From assembly GCA_028283825.1 (NCBI GenBank), contig JAPWJW010000001.1, positions 496,001-560,000 of the forward strand: DNA of 64,000 nt, read 5' to 3'. This document shows positions 17,684 through 37,023 of this stretch, piece after piece (the stretch's first letter is position 1; each line of letters begins with the position of its first letter). Below the pieces are notes generated by a model, which had not been told where the DNA came from, made no database searches, and was given only the letters and a program-made list of their open reading frames with translations. The position numbers were made by a program, and so were the translations under genes. The stretch comes from Azospirillaceae bacterium (GTDB lineage Bacteria; Pseudomonadota; Alphaproteobacteria; Azospirillales; Azospirillaceae).

Positions 17684-17739
17684 ACGTCCGCCTAGCGCGT
17701 TTCGGATATTGCGTTTACTGTTCGTCTGACTCATATCTA

Positions 17740-17788
17740 GAGCAGATCGCGAAAAGGTGGAATCACCTTTGAAGCGTGAATCTGCTCG
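17740..17788. repeat. Nested hairpin of palindromic repeat family 2
   Basis: GAGCAGAT ... ATCTGCTC arms enclose an inner AAAGGTG-GAAT-CACCTTT hairpin. It directly precedes the 144-bp palindromic element and shares its AGAGC boundary. Confidence 0.6.
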
Positions 17789-17802
17789 CGGACAGACTCA
17801 AG

Positions 17803-17946
17803 CTATAGCGGGTTGCGGTTCCGATTAGAGCAAGATGCGATCACGTGTGATCGCATCTTGCTCTTAAGCTGTTCATGATAGAGCGGATTTACACGATCAG
17901 GTGATTCCACCTGATCGCGTTCCGCTCTAAACGCAACCCGCTATAG
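17803..17946. repeat. MITE-like 144-bp element with 15-bp terminal inverted repeats (family 2)
   Basis: CTATAGCGGGTTGCG at 17803-17817 is the exact inverse of CGCAACCCGCTATAG at 17932-17946. Inside are a palindrome with 18-bp perfect arms (17827-17844 / 17847-17864, starting AGAGCAAGATGCGATCAC) and a second, AGAGCGGA...TCCGCTCT, with inner 10-bp arms CGATCAGGTG / CACCTGATCG (17880-17928). No target duplication is obvious. The size and structure resemble a non-autonomous mobile element, but no transposase is present. Confidence 0.65.
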
Positions 17947-17977
17947 GTCACCATGACGCGGGATATGAGAGGTCAAG

Positions 17978-18424
17978 ATGTCAGCGCTGTTGCAGCGGAA
18001 CGACACCATCGTCCCGTCTGACGAAGACACGAAGCTGGCGACGGAGTCGAGCCGCATCCTATCCAAGAACGCGGATCGGGAACTACAGGTCCAGTTGGAC
18101 GACGGGCAGGCCCTGCCCCTGCCCCGCGCCTTGCGGGAACTGATCACCCATCTGCTGGTGGAGATATCCCAGGGTAATGCCGTCACCCTGATCCCGGTTC
18201 ACGCCGAGATGACGACGCAGGAGGCGGCCGACTTCCTGAATGTCAGCCGCCCCCATGTGATCAAATTGTTGGAGACGGGCCAGTTGGCCCATCACAAGGT
18301 GGGCACCCATCGCCGGGTCCGCTTCACGGACCTGAAAGCCTTCAAACAGAGGCAGGCCCAGACCCGATCCAAGGCCATGGCGGAACTGGCGGCCCAGGCC
18401 CAGGAGCTTGGGATGGACTACTGA
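17978..18424 (+). CDS. Excisionase/HTH-type DNA-binding protein, probable orphan antitoxin
   Basis: 148 residues. The central MTTQEAADFLNVSRPHVIKLLETGQLAHHKVGTHRRVR region is a MerR/excisionase-type helix-turn-helix. The C-terminus (MAELAAQAQELGMDY) matches antitoxins that are normally followed by a PIN-domain toxin. No PIN gene follows; the next gene is a convergent, unrelated secreted protein. It lies immediately downstream of the MITE-like palindromic element. DNA binding is confident; antitoxin ancestry is inferred from resemblance and the lack of a toxin makes the current role unclear. Confidence 0.75.
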   Translation: MSALLQRNDTIVPSDEDTKLATESSRILSKNADRELQVQLDDGQALPLPRALRELITHLLVEISQGNAVTLIPVHAEMTTQEAADFLNVSRPHVIKLLETGQLAHHKVGTHRRVRFTDLKAFKQRQAQTRSKAMAELAAQAQELGMDY

Positions 18425-27452: not shown

Positions 27453-29555
27453 TCAAAACCCCAGTTCGCGGCTGAGCCGGGTGGCGCCGTAGACCTTGGT
27501 CAGCGCCTCGCGCACGGCCCCCACCGACACCCACACCGACCGGTTGACGGTGCCGTCGTAACCAAAGTCGCCGCCCAGCGACTGGATGTTGCCGTCGAAG
27601 ATGGTACCGACGATCTGGCCCTGGGTGTTGACCACCGGGGACCCGGAACTGCCGCGCACGATGTCGTTGGTGCTGACGATGTTCAGCTTGCGCGCCATGT
27701 CCAGGTCGCCGCGCGCCTGCGTCCAGGTGCGCGGCAGGGCCAGCGGCGCCACCCCGGTGGCATGCGCGAACGCCTCGCCCACCGTGGTGTAGAAACGCAC
27801 GTGCCGGCCGTTCTCGTCATAGCCCCGGACGGTGCCGTAGGACAGGCGGGGGCTGAAGGTGGCGTCGGGGTAGGCGTCGGTGCCCTTGGCGGCGAAGATG
27901 GCCTGGGCGATGGCACCGGCGTTGCGCCGCTCCACCGCCTCGACATTCACCTCCACATCCCGGCGCACGGCCTGCGCCTGCCTTTCCAGCGCCTGGGCGA
28001 AGCGGATCAGCGGGTCGCGCGACTCATTGATGGCGGTGAGGCCGCCCGTCAGCAGGCGGCGGCGCTCCGCCGGGTCGCCCAAGCGGGTGCCGTCCACCAG
28101 GTCGGCCGCCATGCGGTCGGCCGTGCGTGTGCCCAGCACGTCGCGCACCAGCGGATCGTCCGATCCCAGGGTGCGGCGCAACTGCACCAGCCAGGCGCGC
28201 AGCAGCATCTTTTCCAGGTCGGGAGAAACGGGTGCTTCGGCCAGCAGCCGCTGGCGGGTGAAGGGGAAACCGGCCTCGGTGAATTCCTGGAACCGCCGGA
28301 TGTCGGGCAACTGCCGCTGTTCCGCCGCGCGCACCAGCAGGCGGGCATAGGCGAACAGGTCGGACTGCGGCCCCCGCCCCTCCTCGATCACCTCCATGCG
28401 GTCGGCGATCGCGCGGTAGCGGGCCACCGCCTGGGCGATGGCGGCCCAGGGGTCGCCGAAACGCTGGTGGAACTGCGGGTCGGCCGCCACCCTGGCCCGC
28501 AGATCCTCCTCCGCCGCCCGCCGCGCGTTGATCAGGCCGGGTTCCGCCAGGGCGCGGAACTGGCCCAGGCGCGCCTTGTAGGCGTTCTCCACCGCGAACA
28601 GCTTGGAAAAGGCGACACGGGCGTGTTCCGTGCCCTCCGACGAGAACTGCAGCAGCAGGCCGCGCAGTTCCGCCAGATAGACCAGGCTGTCGGGCAGGAC
28701 GACGTCGCGCTGGTATTCCAGTTCCGCCACGGTATCCAGGCGCGAGGTGCTGCCCGGGTTGCCGGCGGTGAAGACCAGGTCGCCCTCCTCCGCGTCACGC
28801 GGGGCGTAGGGCAGATAGGTGGCCCGGCTGTCCAGCGGCTGGCCGGCGGCCTCATAGACCCGCAGGAAGGCCACATCCAGGTCGTAGCGGGGGAATTCGA
28901 AATTGTCCGGGTCGCCACCGAAGAAGGAGATGTCCTCCTCCGGCGTGAACACCAGGCGGACGTCCTGGTAGCGGCGGTACTTGTAAACGTCGTAGGCGCC
29001 ACCCCGGTACAGTTCCACCACGTCGCAGCGCAGGGTGTCGTCCCCGTCGGCGCAGTCGCGCTGCAACCGGGCCAGCACCTGGCGCAGCGCCACGCCGTAA
29101 TCCTCGCCCGTGCGGCCCGCCAGCGCGTCCTTCACCTGCGCCGTCGCGTCGGTGATGGCCAGCAGCTGGTTGGCCTCCACATCCGGGCACTTGATCTCTT
29201 CCTCCGCCCGGGTGGCGTAGAAGCCTTCCCGCACCAGGTCGCGGCGGGCGGTGGACAGCTGTTGCAGGCAATCGCGGACGCAATGATGGTTGGTCTGCAG
29301 CAGGCCGCCGCCGGAAACGAAGGCGGCGGAGCACCCCCGCGCCAGCCGCACCGACGCCAGGCGCACATGGTCCAGCCAGGCGGGCGACGGGTCGAAGCCG
29401 TAGGCCTCGTTCACCTTGGCGCTGGGGAAATGGTTGAAGGTCCACATGCCTTCGTCGGCGCGGGCGGCGGTCGCGTACCCCAGCAAGACGCACAGCGCCA
29501 GCACCCCACCGCCGTGACGCACGGCGGTCCGTCCCCAACAGAACCAGCGATCCAT
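27453..29555 (-). CDS. S46-family dipeptidyl-peptidase, DPP7-type
   Basis: 700 residues with a signal peptide (to about residue 34, ARA-DEGMWTF). Catalytic His91 is in TNHHC, the Asp is in the FEFPRYDLDVAF region and Ser637 is in GSSGSPVV. At Ser+18 there is Gly (FDGN). In the characterised family this position is Gly in DPP7 enzymes, which prefer hydrophobic P1 residues, and Arg in DPP11, which prefers Asp/Glu. The conserved GNIQSLGGDFGYDGTVNR segment follows. It releases dipeptides from peptide N-termini in the periplasm. A second S46 gene lies 3 kb upstream on the same strand. The first residues include Trp/Cys and the true start could be a little downstream. Confidence 0.94.
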   Translation of the reverse strand: MDRWFCWGRTAVRHGGGVLALCVLLGYATAARADEGMWTFNHFPSAKVNEAYGFDPSPAWLDHVRLASVRLARGCSAAFVSGGGLLQTNHHCVRDCLQQLSTARRDLVREGFYATRAEEEIKCPDVEANQLLAITDATAQVKDALAGRTGEDYGVALRQVLARLQRDCADGDDTLRCDVVELYRGGAYDVYKYRRYQDVRLVFTPEEDISFFGGDPDNFEFPRYDLDVAFLRVYEAAGQPLDSRATYLPYAPRDAEEGDLVFTAGNPGSTSRLDTVAELEYQRDVVLPDSLVYLAELRGLLLQFSSEGTEHARVAFSKLFAVENAYKARLGQFRALAEPGLINARRAAEEDLRARVAADPQFHQRFGDPWAAIAQAVARYRAIADRMEVIEEGRGPQSDLFAYARLLVRAAEQRQLPDIRRFQEFTEAGFPFTRQRLLAEAPVSPDLEKMLLRAWLVQLRRTLGSDDPLVRDVLGTRTADRMAADLVDGTRLGDPAERRRLLTGGLTAINESRDPLIRFAQALERQAQAVRRDVEVNVEAVERRNAGAIAQAIFAAKGTDAYPDATFSPRLSYGTVRGYDENGRHVRFYTTVGEAFAHATGVAPLALPRTWTQARGDLDMARKLNIVSTNDIVRGSSGSPVVNTQGQIVGTIFDGNIQSLGGDFGYDGTVNRSVWVSVGAVREALTKVYGATRLSRELGF

Positions 29556-30431: not shown

Positions 30432-32528
30432 TTACTTGGCGCCCAGTTCCTTGGCCAGGCGGTTGGCGTGATAGACCTTGGTCAACGCCTCCTTCAAGGC
30501 GCCGACCGAGACCCAGACGGCGCGGTTGACGGTGCCGTCGTAGCCGAAGTCACCCCCCAGCGACTGGATGTTGCCGTCGAAGATCAGGCCCACGACCTCG
30601 GCATCCTTGTTGATCACGGGCGAGCCGGAGTTGCCGCCAATGATGTCGTTGGTGCTGACGGCGTCATATTTCTGGCTGGGGTTGATGGCATCCTTGGCCT
30701 TCAGCCAGCTTTCCGGCAGGGCGAAGGGGAAGGCGCCGGTGGCGCGGTCGAAGGTGCCGCCCATGGTGGTGAAGGGCGCCACATGCTGGCCGTTCTGCTC
30801 ATACCCCTTCACCGTGCCGTAGGACAGGCGGGGGCTGAAGGTGGCGTCCGGATAGATCGACGTGCCGTGGATCTTGAACATCGCCTGGGCGATGTAGCCG
30901 GCGTTCTTCTGCTGCACGGCCGACACGTTGGCCTCCACATCCCGGCGGGCGGCCAGGCTGTCGGCATCGACCAGCTTGGCGAACTTCACCATCGGATCAT
31001 TGGAGGCGGCAATGGCGGCCTCACCCCCGTCCAGCAGGCGCTTGCGTTCCGCCGGGTCGCCCAGGGTGGAGTTGCGCACCAGGTCATCGGCGATCTGGTC
31101 GGCGGAGCGGTTGCCGAACACCTTCTTCACCAGGGGATCATCCGGGCCCAGCTGGCGCTGCATGTAGACCAACCCCGCCCGCATCATCGCGCGTTCCAGT
31201 TCCGGATAGACCGGGCTGTTGGACAGCAGGCGCTGGCGCACGAAGGGGAAGTTGGCGTCGGTGTACTCACGCAGGCGCTTGCCGTCCGGCAGGGTGCGCT
31301 CGCTTGCGGCCCGCACCAGGCTGCGCGCGAAGGAGAACAGGTCGGACTGGAAACCGCGCCCACCCTCCAGCACCTCGTACCGGGTGGCGACAATGGCGTA
31401 GTGGTTCACAGACTTGGCGATGGCGGCCCACGGGTCGCCATATTGCTGCTTCAGCGCGGCATCGCCATCGATGGCGGCCTTCAGCTCGGCCTCATCCTTG
31501 CGCTTGGCGTTGATCAGCGCCGGATCGACCAGGGTCTGGAACTGGCCGTACAGCGCCTTGTAGCTGTTCTCGATACCGAACAGCTTGGTGCGCGCGGTGC
31601 GGGCGTTCTCCTCACCCTGCGCCGTGAACTGCAACAGGATGCCGCGCAGTTCCGTCAGGTACAGCAGGCGGTCGGGCAGGCCGTGGTCGCGGTCGTATTC
31701 CAGCTCCGCCACCGTGTCCAAACGCTCCGTCCGGCCGGGATTGCCGGAGGTGAAGACCAGGTCGCCCTCGCCCGCGTCCTTCGCCGCATAGGGCAGGTAG
31801 TTGGCCTTGGTGTTCAGCGGCTTGCCGTCCTTGTCGTAGACACGGACGTAGGAGACGTCGAGGTCGTAGCGCGGGAATTCGAAATTGTCCGGATCGCCGC
31901 CGAAGAAGGCGATGTCTTCCTCCGGCGCGAACACCAGGCGGACATCCTGGTAGCGATGGTACTTATAAAGATTGTAGACGCCGCCGTGGTACAGCTCGAC
32001 CACGTCGCAACGGATGTCATCGGCGCCGCCGGTGCATTCCTTCTGGATGGTGGACTGCACCTCCTTCAGGGCGGCGGAGAAGTCATCGCCTTCCTTGCCG
32101 GCCACGGCGGTCTGCACCCGCTGGGTGACGTCGGTGATCTGGACCAGCTGGTTGGCCTCGATATCCGGGCACTTGGGCTCGTCCTTCAGCTCCGTCGCGT
32201 AGAAGCCGTCCTTGATGTGGTTCTGCTCGGCCGTCGACAGCTGCGCGATGCAGCTGCGGGCGCAGTGGTGGTTGGTCTGGATCAGCCCGTTGGGCGAGAC
32301 GAAGGCGGCAGAACAGCCGCGCGCCAGTCGGACGGAGCCCAGCTGCACATGCTCCAGCCACTTGGGATCGGGGCTGAAGCCATAGGCCTGCTTCACCTTG
32401 GCGCTGGGGAAGTTGTTGAAGGTCCACATGCCTTCATCGGCACCGGCCTGCAGGGGCGCCAGCAGCAGCCCAGCGAATGCAGCCGCCACCAGGACGCTCA
32501 GCGGAGCACCCTTCAGCAAATCACGCAT
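30432..32528 (-). CDS. S46-family dipeptidyl-peptidase, DPP7-type
   Basis: 698 residues from ATG 32528, chosen because a good signal peptide (VLVAAAFAGLLLAPLQAGA) follows and GAGG lies upstream; the 31 residues before it are not signal-like. The catalytic His is in TNHHC, the Asp in the FEFPRYDLDVSY region, and the Ser in GGNSGSPVIN. Gly follows 18 residues after that Ser (FDGN), again the DPP7 type. It is a close paralogue of the gene at 27453-29555, on the same strand, with its own terminator. Together they would supply dipeptides from periplasmic or external oligopeptides. Confidence 0.95.
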   Translation of the reverse strand: MRDLLKGAPLSVLVAAAFAGLLLAPLQAGADEGMWTFNNFPSAKVKQAYGFSPDPKWLEHVQLGSVRLARGCSAAFVSPNGLIQTNHHCARSCIAQLSTAEQNHIKDGFYATELKDEPKCPDIEANQLVQITDVTQRVQTAVAGKEGDDFSAALKEVQSTIQKECTGGADDIRCDVVELYHGGVYNLYKYHRYQDVRLVFAPEEDIAFFGGDPDNFEFPRYDLDVSYVRVYDKDGKPLNTKANYLPYAAKDAGEGDLVFTSGNPGRTERLDTVAELEYDRDHGLPDRLLYLTELRGILLQFTAQGEENARTARTKLFGIENSYKALYGQFQTLVDPALINAKRKDEAELKAAIDGDAALKQQYGDPWAAIAKSVNHYAIVATRYEVLEGGRGFQSDLFSFARSLVRAASERTLPDGKRLREYTDANFPFVRQRLLSNSPVYPELERAMMRAGLVYMQRQLGPDDPLVKKVFGNRSADQIADDLVRNSTLGDPAERKRLLDGGEAAIAASNDPMVKFAKLVDADSLAARRDVEANVSAVQQKNAGYIAQAMFKIHGTSIYPDATFSPRLSYGTVKGYEQNGQHVAPFTTMGGTFDRATGAFPFALPESWLKAKDAINPSQKYDAVSTNDIIGGNSGSPVINKDAEVVGLIFDGNIQSLGGDFGYDGTVNRAVWVSVGALKEALTKVYHANRLAKELGAK

Positions 32529-32666
32529 TGTCGTTTTCCTCACGGCAGTCGAAGTCCGGTGCCCCGCAGCCCGGTTGCGGGATTTGCACCATATTCCGCC
32601 GTGGGTTGGCAAGAGGATCACCGCCGGCCTATCCGCCTGCGGCGTGCCCTTCGCGGCTGGCGCGTC

Positions 32667-33662: not shown

Positions 33663-33770
33663 TGTCGCCACCCTTCACACATAAACCAGGCCCCATCCCC
33701 CATGGATCGGGCATTCGGACTGCGGATGATGAACGCGGCCAATCGCCGCCGCCAACGGCAAAAACGGGGT

Positions 33771-33788
33771 TGGTTGCCGATCCCTTGA
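33771..33788 (-). repeat. Iteron, inverted copy upstream of rep
   Basis: TGGTTGCCGATCCCTTGA is the exact reverse complement of the iteron at 34006-34023. Confidence 0.75.
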
Positions 33789-33844
33789 GATTCTGGCGGG
33801 CAGACCCCCAAAATGTGGTGTCCAACCCCGAGTCGATCCGCTCG

Positions 33845-33884
33845 CGGTTTCCGAACCCGTGACCTTGGGTTACCGATCCCTTGA
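33845..33884 (-). repeat. Two inverted iteron copies
   Basis: CGGTTTCCGAACCCGTGA (33845-33862) and GGGTTACCGATCCCTTGA (33867-33884) match the inverse of the TCAAGGGATCGGNAACC consensus and are 22 bp apart. Confidence 0.65.
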
Positions 33885-34005
33885 GTCGACTCGGGAATGG
33901 ACTCGGGCGACTCAGTCCCGGGGCGGATTTGGCGCCGGACTCGGGGGCAGGATGAGTCCAACCACGGTATCTGAGTCCGGAATCGGGGCTTGGCCGCCCC
34001 TTTCC

Positions 34006-34065
34006 TCAAGGGATCGGCAACCAACTTTGAGGGAACGGCAACCAAGATCAAGGGTATGGCAACCG
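34006..34065 (+). repeat. Iteron array, three direct copies at 21-bp spacing
   Basis: TCAAGGGATCGGCAACCA (34006), TTGAGGGAACGGCAACCA (34027) and TCAAGGGTATGGCAACCG (34048) start exactly 21 bp apart, two helical turns. This is the classical geometry for cooperative initiator binding. Confidence 0.85.
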
Positions 34066-34092
34066 ACTCCGGCCGACTCGCGGGTTTTCCGC

Positions 34093-34139
34093 TCAAGGTT
34101 TCGGATACCGGTTTTTCCCGCTCCAGGGTTCGGTAACCT
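34093..34139 (+). repeat. Two further direct iteron copies
   Basis: TCAAGGTTTCGGATACCG (34093-34110) and TCCAGGGTTCGGTAACCT (34122-34139) fit the consensus with a few changes. Confidence 0.65.
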
Positions 34140-34210
34140 TCCCCCAAGGTTTCAACGACCCCAGGCCCGAGGGTTTGGAGTCCTGAACCCCAGGCTTCAG
34201 ATACCGGGAG

Positions 34211-34228
34211 TCACGGGTACCGTTACCA
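34211..34228 (+). repeat. Divergent iteron copy
   Basis: TCACGGGTACCGTTACCA, next to the AT-rich stretch. Confidence 0.5.
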
Positions 34229-34500
34229 AACTACCATTTAAGCGATTGAAAAATTTGCGTTTTTCGAAGCCGTAACAGTTAAACCCTATATCCGTTTAAC
34301 CCTGAATCCTTTTAAGGAAACAATCCACAGCCCCCTCCTTTCCGCGCAAGTACAACAGCACCGTGGCAGAGCCAGCAGGTTTCAGAGCGGGCTTTTCCTC
34401 AAGCGCCCATCCTAAGATCGCCAGACGCTCGTCACGCGTATTTTCACCAAAACCCCAGCAAATCCGCCAAATCGCTGCCCGTTCACTCCGTTTTGGAAAT

Positions 34501-34594
34501 TGGTATCCGTTCCCTTGAAGATCGGGGTCCGCGAAGTAGAAGATCGGCCCGTTCACCAGTCCCGATCGCCCCACTTTCAAGGTTACGGTTACCA
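34501..34594. repeat. Iteron pair in opposite orientations near parA
   Basis: TGGTATCCGTTCCCTTGA (34501-34518, inverted) and TCAAGGTTACGGTTACCA (34577-34594, direct) face each other about 170-260 bp before the parA start. Confidence 0.65.
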
Positions 34595-34624
34595 AACCAG
34601 CCGAATCGGGCAGTCATTGAAATC

Positions 34625-34669: not shown

Positions 34670-34765
34670 AATAGTTATCCGCATCTTTGTCCGAAGATCG
34701 CGGTTGGCGTCTGGGGCGCGGTTGGGCATTATCCGCCCATCTTTGGCAGCCCCTCGGATACATCC

Positions 34766-36022
34766 ATGACCACCGATGTCAGCGCGCCCGCCGATCCCGC
34801 TTCCCCGGCCGGCGACGATCCCCTGCAAATCTTCCTCGACCACTCGGAAGGCTGCGATGCCATCCAGCGCAAGATCATCGAGGTGCAGTCCTATCCCGGA
34901 CACGCCAAGACGCTGCGCCTGTTCACCACGTCGGAAGCGGCGCGCCTGATCCGCATTTCCGAAAGCCACCTGCGGGCGCTGCTGAAGAATGAGCAATTTC
35001 CCCAGGGGACGGTCATCGGCGGCAATAACCGCCGCGGCTTCACCCTGGGTGAGGTCAACCAAATCCGCCGGCAACTGTTCCAGCAGACGGGCGACGTGCG
35101 TTACCGCGTGGGCCGTGATCGTGAGGCGGGCGAGAAGCTGTCGGTCATCACCGTCGCCAACTTCAAGGGCGGGGCGGCCAAGACCACCCATTCCGTTCAC
35201 CTGGCCCAGTACCTGGCCTTGCAGGGCTATCGCGTGCTGATGATCGACCTGGACAGCCAGGCCAGTGCCACCTCGCTGTTCGGCTTCGTCCCCGATGAAC
35301 AGTTCGACCGGCTGGACACGCTGTACCGCCTGTTCACCCTGGACGACGCACAGCGCATCAGCGATCTGCGGCCGCTGATCCAGAAGACCTACTGGGATGG
35401 GCTGGACGTCATTCCCGCCAACCTTGGCCTGTATTCCACGGAGTTCGAGGTACCGGTGCGCCAGATGCGCCAGCGGGAATTGCGCTTCTGGCGCATCCTG
35501 GCCGATTCGCTTCAGACCGTGGACCAGGATTACGACATCGTCGTCTGCGATTGCCCGCCGTCGCTGAGTTATCTGTCGATCAACGCGGTGATGGCCGCCA
35601 ACTTCCTGCTGGTTCCCATTCCCCCCAGCATGCTGGACTTCAGTTCCGCCGGGCGCTTCTTCCGCATGGTCTATGAGACGCTGTCCACCCTGGCGCAGGC
35701 CGAGGGCGGGCGGGTGAAGACCTTCGACGCCGTGCGTCTGCTGGTGTCGAAGTACCAGACCGCCGACGGCAACCAGAGCCAACTGGTGAAGTGGATGGGC
35801 AGCATCTTCGCCGACACGCTGCTGGAAAACCGCATGGCCCTGACCACCGGCCTGGATAGCGCCGGCAACCTGAAGCAAAGCTATTACGAGCTTGAGGCCA
35901 GCGACGTGAACCGCCGCACCTATGAGCGCGGCCTGGAATATCTGAACAACGTGAATGCCGAGATCGAACGCGTGGTCTGGGACATCTGGAAGCGCGCGCC
36001 GGCGCGGGAGGGGACGCGATGA
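34766..36022 (+). CDS. parA: Partition ATPase ParA (RepA type) with N-terminal HTH
   Basis: 418 residues. Residues about 48-110 form a MerR-like DNA-binding region (TTSEAARLIRISESHLRALLKN). The deviant Walker A is KGGAAKTTH (135-142), Walker A' is MIDLDSQAS and Walker B is IVVCDCPPSLS. It uses ATP to position the replicon before division and, with its HTH, probably represses its own operon. The stop overlaps parB by four bases. Length and domain order match plasmid/chromid type Ia ParA, not chromosomal Soj. Confidence 0.95.
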   Translation: MTTDVSAPADPASPAGDDPLQIFLDHSEGCDAIQRKIIEVQSYPGHAKTLRLFTTSEAARLIRISESHLRALLKNEQFPQGTVIGGNNRRGFTLGEVNQIRRQLFQQTGDVRYRVGRDREAGEKLSVITVANFKGGAAKTTHSVHLAQYLALQGYRVLMIDLDSQASATSLFGFVPDEQFDRLDTLYRLFTLDDAQRISDLRPLIQKTYWDGLDVIPANLGLYSTEFEVPVRQMRQRELRFWRILADSLQTVDQDYDIVVCDCPPSLSYLSINAVMAANFLLVPIPPSMLDFSSAGRFFRMVYETLSTLAQAEGGRVKTFDAVRLLVSKYQTADGNQSQLVKWMGSIFADTLLENRMALTTGLDSAGNLKQSYYELEASDVNRRTYERGLEYLNNVNAEIERVVWDIWKRAPAREGTR

Positions 36023-37023
36023 GCCGCAAGGACAGAATGGCCGAACTGGACAACGCCATCGGCGATTTGACGGCGACAAGGGGTGCGCGGCCGGCGATGT
36101 CACGCTCCGCCATTCCCATCGTCAACCAGATCGAAAGCGTGTTCCAGGACAGCGCCAAGGAACTGGAGACGCTGCGCGACAGCGGCCGCGTCCTGCTGGA
36201 ACTGGACCCGTCGGACATCCATGGCACCCAGTACCAGGACCGGCACACCGCCGCCTTCGCCGATGCCGCCTTCGCCACCCTGGTGCAGGACATCCTGCGC
36301 CATGGCCAGTTGGCCCCGGTGCTGGTGCGGCCGGCCCCTGACGGCAACGGCTATGAGCTGATCGCCGGTCATCGCCGCACGGCCGCCTGCCGGCAGCTGG
36401 GCCGCAAGGTGGTGGCGCGGGTGATGGCGGCCGATGACCGCGACCTGCTGATCAAGATGGTGCAGGAGAATGAGGCCCGCGCCGACATCTCCGCCTATGA
36501 GCGCGCGGTGCAGCTGAAGACCGTTTTGGATACCGGCCTGATGAGCCGGGCCGAATTGATGGAGCGGCTGGACTTCAGCAAGGGCCATCTGTCCAACCTG
36601 CTGAAGTTCGCGGAACTGCCGGCCCATGTGGTCGCGGCATTGGAAGACCCGCGGCCGCTGAAGATCAGTGACGGCGCCAAGCTGGCCCGCCTGATCGCCG
36701 ACAGTGCAGAGGCGGCGGCGCGGGTGGATGAGGCGGCGGCGCAGCTGACGGCCCTGGCCGGCGATGACGGTCTGGGCTTTGCCGCCCGACTGCGGGCCCT
36801 GATGGCGGCGGCCCAGGGCGAGGTGCCCGTGGAAGCGGAGGTGGGGGGCGAGCGGGTGATCCGCTCCCGCACCGGCCAGGTTCTGGTCCGCCTGTCGCTG
36901 CATGAGGGACGCCCCATCCTGCGCCTGGCGGCGGGGCTGCCGTCGCAGACGCTGGATGCCCTGTTCGCGGAATTGCCTGATGCGTTGCGGCGCTGCGGCC
37001 TGGATGTGCCCGACACCTTATAA
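36019..37023 (+). CDS. parB: Partition protein ParB (RepB type)
   Basis: 334 residues. The N-terminal nuclease-like ParB domain includes the YELIAGHRRTAACRQLG box and MVQENEARADISAYERA. The central HTH is SRAELMERLDFSKGHLSNLLKFAELP. The C-terminal region would dimerise. It binds the replicon centromere and stimulates ParA. A terminator and two identical palindromes that are candidate binding sites lie directly behind the gene. Confidence 0.95.
   Translation: MSRKDRMAELDNAIGDLTATRGARPAMSRSAIPIVNQIESVFQDSAKELETLRDSGRVLLELDPSDIHGTQYQDRHTAAFADAAFATLVQDILRHGQLAPVLVRPAPDGNGYELIAGHRRTAACRQLGRKVVARVMAADDRDLLIKMVQENEARADISAYERAVQLKTVLDTGLMSRAELMERLDFSKGHLSNLLKFAELPAHVVAALEDPRPLKISDGAKLARLIADSAEAAARVDEAAAQLTALAGDDGLGFAARLRALMAAAQGEVPVEAEVGGERVIRSRTGQVLVRLSLHEGRPILRLAAGLPSQTLDALFAELPDALRRCGLDVPDTL

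Follow-up and report, generated by a model that had tools for sequence, protein, structure and literature searches.

The window, the whole 64-kb stretch of DNA analysed, corresponds to C1:496001-560000, where C1 is a replicon of 2,209,595 bp that was read entire; the genome comprises 7.16 Mb in five contigs. The window carries genes for a replication initiator (rep), ParA, and ParB, with an intergenic gap between rep and parA (Table 1). The initiator belongs to the RPA family, is the sole RPA match in the genome, and also matches the WH1 model Rep3_N above its cut-off (E 8.3e-7). A search against solved structures returned two weak, irrelevant matches for this protein. Iterons in the gap were located with a weight matrix trained on seven genomes of the genus. 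The matrix has 21 matches in the gap, or 15 after removal of six opposite-strand overlaps, compared to 0.3 expected from mononucleotide shuffles. Within the forward array the iterons start 21-23 bp apart in runs, and the segment 33769-33789 has a perfect inverted copy of 21 bp at 34005-34025. By eye, the AT-rich element, which is probably the unwinding element, shows repeats of TTTAACCCT type. Two S46-peptidase-like genes also lie near the origin, one at 30432-32621 (Pfam-checked) and one at 27453-29555 (assigned by translation similarity).

Table 1. Features of the rep-parA region, in window positions.
Feature	Position	Strand	Remarks
rep, RPA-family replication initiator, 334 aa	32667..33671	-	PF10134, E 2.6e-54, 184.7 bits over cut-off 27
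Three iterons, reversed (33772, 33846, 33868)	33772..33884	-	weight-matrix scan
15 GANTC sites (33789, 33830, 33883, 33888, 33900, 33909, 33938, 33954, 33973, 33980, 34065, 34075, 34178, 34208, 34304)	33789..34308	.	direct count
Densest GANTC block, 8 sites in 102 bp	33883..33984	.	between the reverse and forward iteron arrays
Degenerate iteron containing GANTC 33973	33962..33978	+	matrix scan; all seven genomes have the site
Forward iteron array (34006, 34027, 34048, 34093, 34122, 34144, 34167, 34189, 34211)	34006..34227	+	consensus TCAAGGGTTCGGNAACC
Iteron containing GANTC 34178	34167..34183	+	matrix scan
AT-rich element with GANTC 34304	34220..34320	.	38% GC in 34220-34309
DnaA-box-like position	34321..34329	+	CAATCCACA in the window, with two mismatches; five of the seven genomes have CTATCCACA, with one mismatch
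Distal iteron	34502..34518	-	matrix scan
Distal iteron	34577..34593	+	matrix scan
DnaA-box-like TTATCCGCA, one mismatch	34675..34683	+	in 7 of 7 genomes
ParA, repABC RepA-type	34766..36022	+	PF13614; TIGR03453, 359.1 bits vs cut-off 348.45
ParB	36019..37023	+	PF02195; TIGR00180 over cut-off, TIGR03454 (RepB) under its cut-off

The rep-parA gap serves as the replication origin of a chromid under iteron control. This assignment follows from the anatomy of the rep and parAB region, the lack of RepC, the GC skew, the replicon that carries the orthologous locus in a relative, and the presence of tRNA genes. The RepC family (PF03428) has no match in the whole genome, which rejects membership of the replicon in the repABC group. 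Along C1 the cumulative GC skew reaches its lowest point at 515,669, a distance of 14 kb from the gap, and peaks half a circle away at 1,615,569. In N. viridazoti CBAmc the orthologous locus is found on chromosome 2 (2,007,914 bp), and ten tRNA genes occur in the first 60 of the 111 stretches of C1. DnaA has its best match on C3 and a weaker one (1e-5) on C4. The original prediction had placed a cluster of GANTC sites in a replication origin, and the RPA initiator, the ParA and ParB proteins, the iterons, the AT-rich element, and the GC skew support this placement.

That prediction had listed 15 GANTC sites and estimated that base composition would yield about two. All 15 positions proved exact on recount, and 2000 dinucleotide-preserving shuffles of the 520 bp contain 2.5 sites on average and nine at most, none reaching 15. 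A 16th site in the gap, at 34603, lies beyond the range then considered. The window as a whole has 57 GANTC against a shuffle mean of 182.8, and the motif is thus otherwise avoided. Density was scanned over all of C1 and, for C2-C4, in eight 20-kb stretches. C1 contains 1,854 GANTC (0.84/kb), and its richest 520-bp stretch is the origin cluster, followed by a runner-up with eight sites; the possibility that such a density is nothing unusual thus fails on this replicon. The rep-parA gap as a whole (16 sites in 1,115 bp, or 14.3/kb) ranks second in GANTC density among the 341 gaps of at least 300 bp on C1, where a crude home-made gene call gives 0.61 sites/kb for coding and 1.94 for intergenic DNA. 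The densest of these gaps, at 17684-17989 of the window, has five GANTC in 306 bp (six within 520 bp from 17728) and is flanked by a sensor histidine kinase-like ORF and a small ORF of DNA-binding type, both named by eye. The second densest cluster of C1 (eight sites, C1:1845217) is situated inside a long ORF whose neighbour is transposase-like.

The sites are conserved within the genus. In six other genomes of the genus Nitrospirillum the corresponding gap, 75-77% identical, contains 14-17 GANTC, and 11 of the 15 sites occur in all seven genomes, with spacings among them that differ by 2 bp or less. The remaining four are found in six genomes (33883), four (33789), two (33900), and the window only (33980), and one site present in the other six genomes, at 33718, has been lost from the window. 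Of the sites outside iterons, 8 of 11 are fully conserved, compared to 8.8% of 181 comparable non-iteron windows (nominal P 5e-7) or 17.7% of 688 windows over the whole gap (nominal P 1e-4); the genomes compared are related, so these P values overstate the significance. The middle base, a feature missed by the original prediction, is also constrained. Of the 15 origin sites, 12 have C or G there, compared to 29% of the 1,839 other sites on C1 (nominal P 6e-5), and the 12 GACTC or GAGTC within 520 bp at the origin compare to a maximum of three elsewhere on C1. Across the seven genomes, 10 of the 11 non-iteron sites keep one and the same middle base; the constraint thus exceeds a bare GANTC, and the expectation of a free middle base, which would have proved selection by CcrM alone, is not borne out. 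The middle base does vary at two sites that remain GANTC, 34178 (G, C, or A, depending on the genome) and 33883 (G or A). The bias toward C or G allows a second reading of the sites, by GcrA or another protein.

Methylation of these sites by CcrM had been assumed from the motif, and a gene for a CcrM-type methyltransferase is indeed found in the genome. It is the sole PF01555 methyltransferase, is located on C3, and has the CcrM layout of PF01555 plus RAMA; the NCBIfam CcrM model matches it with E 1.4e-185 and 616 bits, under the cut-off of 830. C3 also encodes GcrA. Around the 5' end of ccrM (L049, 9679-9791) there are six GANTC in 113 bp, three of them in the context YGAKTCG, a possible feedback arrangement, and three GANTC lie upstream of gcrA. 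On the smaller replicons C2 and C4, the Rep3-family rep genes adjoin origins (L044, 8093-8384, and L045, 8964-9437) with six GANTC each within 520 bp in the gap on the rep side.

Beyond the genus, enrichment of GANTC at RPA origins is patchy. Relatives of the initiator occur in 26 of the 59 genomes searched, and GANTC exceeds the locus's own shuffles at the 5% level in 7 of 23 other loci of the family and, among 14 named alphaproteobacterial plasmids, in two. Summed over 600 bp each, the counts are 42 against 18.9 in shuffles for six named Azospirillaceae, 29 against 18.4 for eight other alphaproteobacteria, and 9 against 12.4 for six gammaproteobacteria. Of 387 genomes drawn from across the class, 33 had an RPA match, and most of the 28 RPA loci from this draw contain 0-5 GANTC in about 900 bp. 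A general GANTC excess across RPA origins is thus rejected. Two Azospirillum RPA origins (L019 and L173) have 18-19 GANTC upstream of rep, as dense as in the window, several of them about 11 bp apart.

In plasmids of Leisingera, Dinoroseobacter, and Phaeobacter, three successive 22-bp units start with GANTCYGAAC/ACCCC, the middle base being C or T, and in Komagataeibacter GAATC is found in four successive units and a fifth set apart. The window iteron reads GGTTNCCGAACCC when reversed; the roseobacter GANTC aligns to its second to sixth base, and both window iterons that contain a GANTC have GACTC in exactly this register. Sixty alphaproteobacterial RPA origins outside the genus, reduced to 51 non-redundant clusters, were compared for such phasing; besides the seven genus genomes, this set omits L026, L027, L170, and L216 (duplicates of L201, L192, L013, and L018), the fragments L031 and L217, and matches for which no locus was extracted. 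GANTC pairs exactly 22 bp apart occur in 15 of the 51 clusters, compared to a mean of 1.6 and a maximum of 6 in 1000 trials of random placement, and pairs at 44 bp in 10. At least three sites are in phase in seven clusters, and just two in eight. Among 16 such palindromes, GANTC alone stands out this far over control spacings (at 22 bp, CGNCG has 10 against 9.5 at controls and GTNAC 5 against 0.75). The six gammaproteobacterial RPA origins have no 22-bp GANTC pair. GANTC within RPA iterons is thus real in several lineages but not general. Seed-based iteron discovery at the other loci gave uneven results, with nothing sensible in the Dinoroseobacter locus. Another iteron type, with 22-bp units of TGACGA type, is found in the RPA plasmids L182 (2175-2315), L178, and L025, where 13 of 20 units read from the sequences bear GANTC (5/7, 4/6, and 4/7, respectively); the core patterns used in a test of the GANTC slot within the units were written after the repeats had been seen. 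The copies without GANTC on these plasmids are of a second type with different spacing.

These observations lead us to propose, with a probability of about 0.5, that CcrM methylation gates the iteron origin of the Nitrospirillum chromid much as Dam acts with RctB, CcrM taking the place of Dam. A link between replication and methylation state is plausible and would fit both the conservation of the sites and the in-phase GANTC in the iterons of relatives. Judging from its family, the RPA initiator would bind the roughly 15 iterons around the block of CcrM sites and open the adjacent AT-rich element. Methylation of GANTC would alter the formation of the initiator complex: a fully methylated origin could fire, and the hemimethylated origin left after firing would be blocked until the next round of CcrM activity, late in the cycle. 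Some sites may act directly because they are located in or against iterons, with 33973 and 34178 inside an iteron, 33883 and 34208 overlapping an iteron end, and 33789 and 34065 abutting one. The remaining sites would make up the spaced block that separates the two iteron arrays. Several findings speak against such gating. Only 2 of the 15 window iterons contain GANTC, so a site in every iteron is rejected, and the conserved middle base, the patchy enrichment beyond the genus, the eight in-phase origins with no more than two such sites, and the many RPA origins without the pattern also count against it.

The main rival reading is transcriptional and does not exclude methylation gating. GcrA together with sigma-70 might read GANTC methylation in the rep-parA gap and time the expression of rep (and parAB), so that methylation would set the level of the initiator rather than its binding. 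A gcrA gene is present, and YGAKTCG, which we take to be the extended GcrA context, surrounds 5 of the 15 origin sites but 10.3% of 1,839 C1 sites (P 0.015). Five such motifs per 520 bp are the maximum on C1, where the next value is three, and four of their positions recur across most of the genus. The sites around the start of ccrM and those upstream of gcrA fit the same reading. In Agrobacterium, CcrM promotes repABC expression with involvement of GcrA (PMC11514494). The literature gives the extended motif as YGAKTCK or TGATTCG, and Brevundimonas does not favour it, according to the same source (PMC7987155). Moreover, one or two promoters would hardly need as many as 15 sites, and the gap has a lone sigma-70-like match (33785-33814, plus strand; 0.6 expected), with no site resembling a rep promoter found on its minus strand. 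Regulation through GcrA would also leave the GANTC in iteron register elsewhere unexplained, and we consider it less likely than direct gating to account for the array.

Alternatively, the conserved unit could be a GASTC-centred motif bound by the initiator or another origin factor, its overlap with CcrM sites being incidental. Such a motif would explain the fixed middle base at 10 of 11 non-iteron sites and the excess of GASTC (12 per 520 bp, three or fewer elsewhere on C1), and the roseobacter repeat itself includes GANTC. However, GANTC is otherwise avoided, as the window count against shuffles indicates, and GA and TC are retained despite a changing middle base, both at 34178 and 33883 and in the iterons of other lineages. 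In addition, in-phase sites are found in none of the six gammaproteobacterial RPA origins, and this possibility appears quite improbable. Chance and base composition, by which the cluster would simply reflect the richness of AT-richer intergenic DNA in GANTC (three times the coding density), are contradicted by the counts and rejected, given the gap's 14.3/kb against 1.94/kb for intergenic DNA, the shuffles, the replicon-wide scan, and the conserved positions and spacing.

The proposed gating of the origin by CcrM has precedents that differ from the one first put forward. The interpretation of the cluster as an origin with sites beyond chance stands, but Dam/SeqA at E. coli oriC is not its nearest parallel; Vibrio oriII and the Agrobacterium repABC origin are nearer. 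E. coli oriC shares dense methylation sites in an origin and is near in this general idea alone, as it is a DnaA origin on the main chromosome with SeqA as the reader. In oriII of Vibrio cholerae, Dam sites lie within the RctB iterons, and RctB prefers fully methylated 12-mers (PMC2865523). Both oriII and the Nitrospirillum origin belong to secondary chromosomes, depend on iterons and an initiator, and concentrate the sites of a solitary adenine methyltransferase, some of them in iterons. They differ in the enzyme and motif (Dam and GATC in Vibrio, CcrM and GANTC here), in the initiators RctB and RPA, whose families are unrelated by name, and in the share of iterons with a site, which is all of them in oriII. 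In Agrobacterium, ori2 fires late under CcrM depletion and over-initiates under CcrM excess (PMC11514494). The repABC origins of Agrobacterium Ch2, pTiR10, and pAMI4 resemble the window origin in that they belong to secondary replicons of alphaproteobacterial CcrM hosts and combine a GANTC excess near the replication genes with a RepA-type ParA. In place of RepC, the window has an RPA initiator and iterons in an intergenic origin, and the reported 3+3+3 GANTC in three regions of Agrobacterium Ch2 contrast with 15 in 520 bp (PMC11514494). The RPA ("RepA") plasmids of Rhodobacterales, Acetobacteraceae, and Sphingomonadales share the PF10134 initiator, iterons about 22 bp apart, and the GANTC register seen in two window iterons, and the roseobacter RPA plasmids examined also share divergent parAB. 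On those plasmids GANTC recurs in successive iterons, whereas here most sites form a block between the arrays.

The richness of repABC origins in GANTC is already known (PMC6090056; PMC9040568). No description that ties GANTC to iteron- or RPA-type origins was found in the open-licence literature of PubMed Central, as represented by titles, abstracts, and some passages. For Sulfitobacter genomes, GANTC methylation has been reported, and the accessible parts of that report do not mention iterons (PMC9025767). A broader possibility, which we put forward tentatively, is a CcrM-licensed class of alphaproteobacterial iteron replicons that evolved independently of Vibrio. Their RPA initiators would need fully methylated GANTC in or between the iterons and would fire only after the late pulse of CcrM, and Nitrospirillum chromosome 2 would represent an elaborated form with a spaced array of 15 sites.

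The dense and conserved GANTC array suggests that copying of the second chromosome of Nitrospirillum may be timed by DNA methylation. Described work on how alphaproteobacteria keep their extra chromosomes in step concerns repABC. The conserved array of CcrM sites, together with GANTC in the iterons of related plasmids, would offer a small and defined test system, open to mutation, in which methylation-gated initiation could be studied apart from both Dam/SeqA and repABC.
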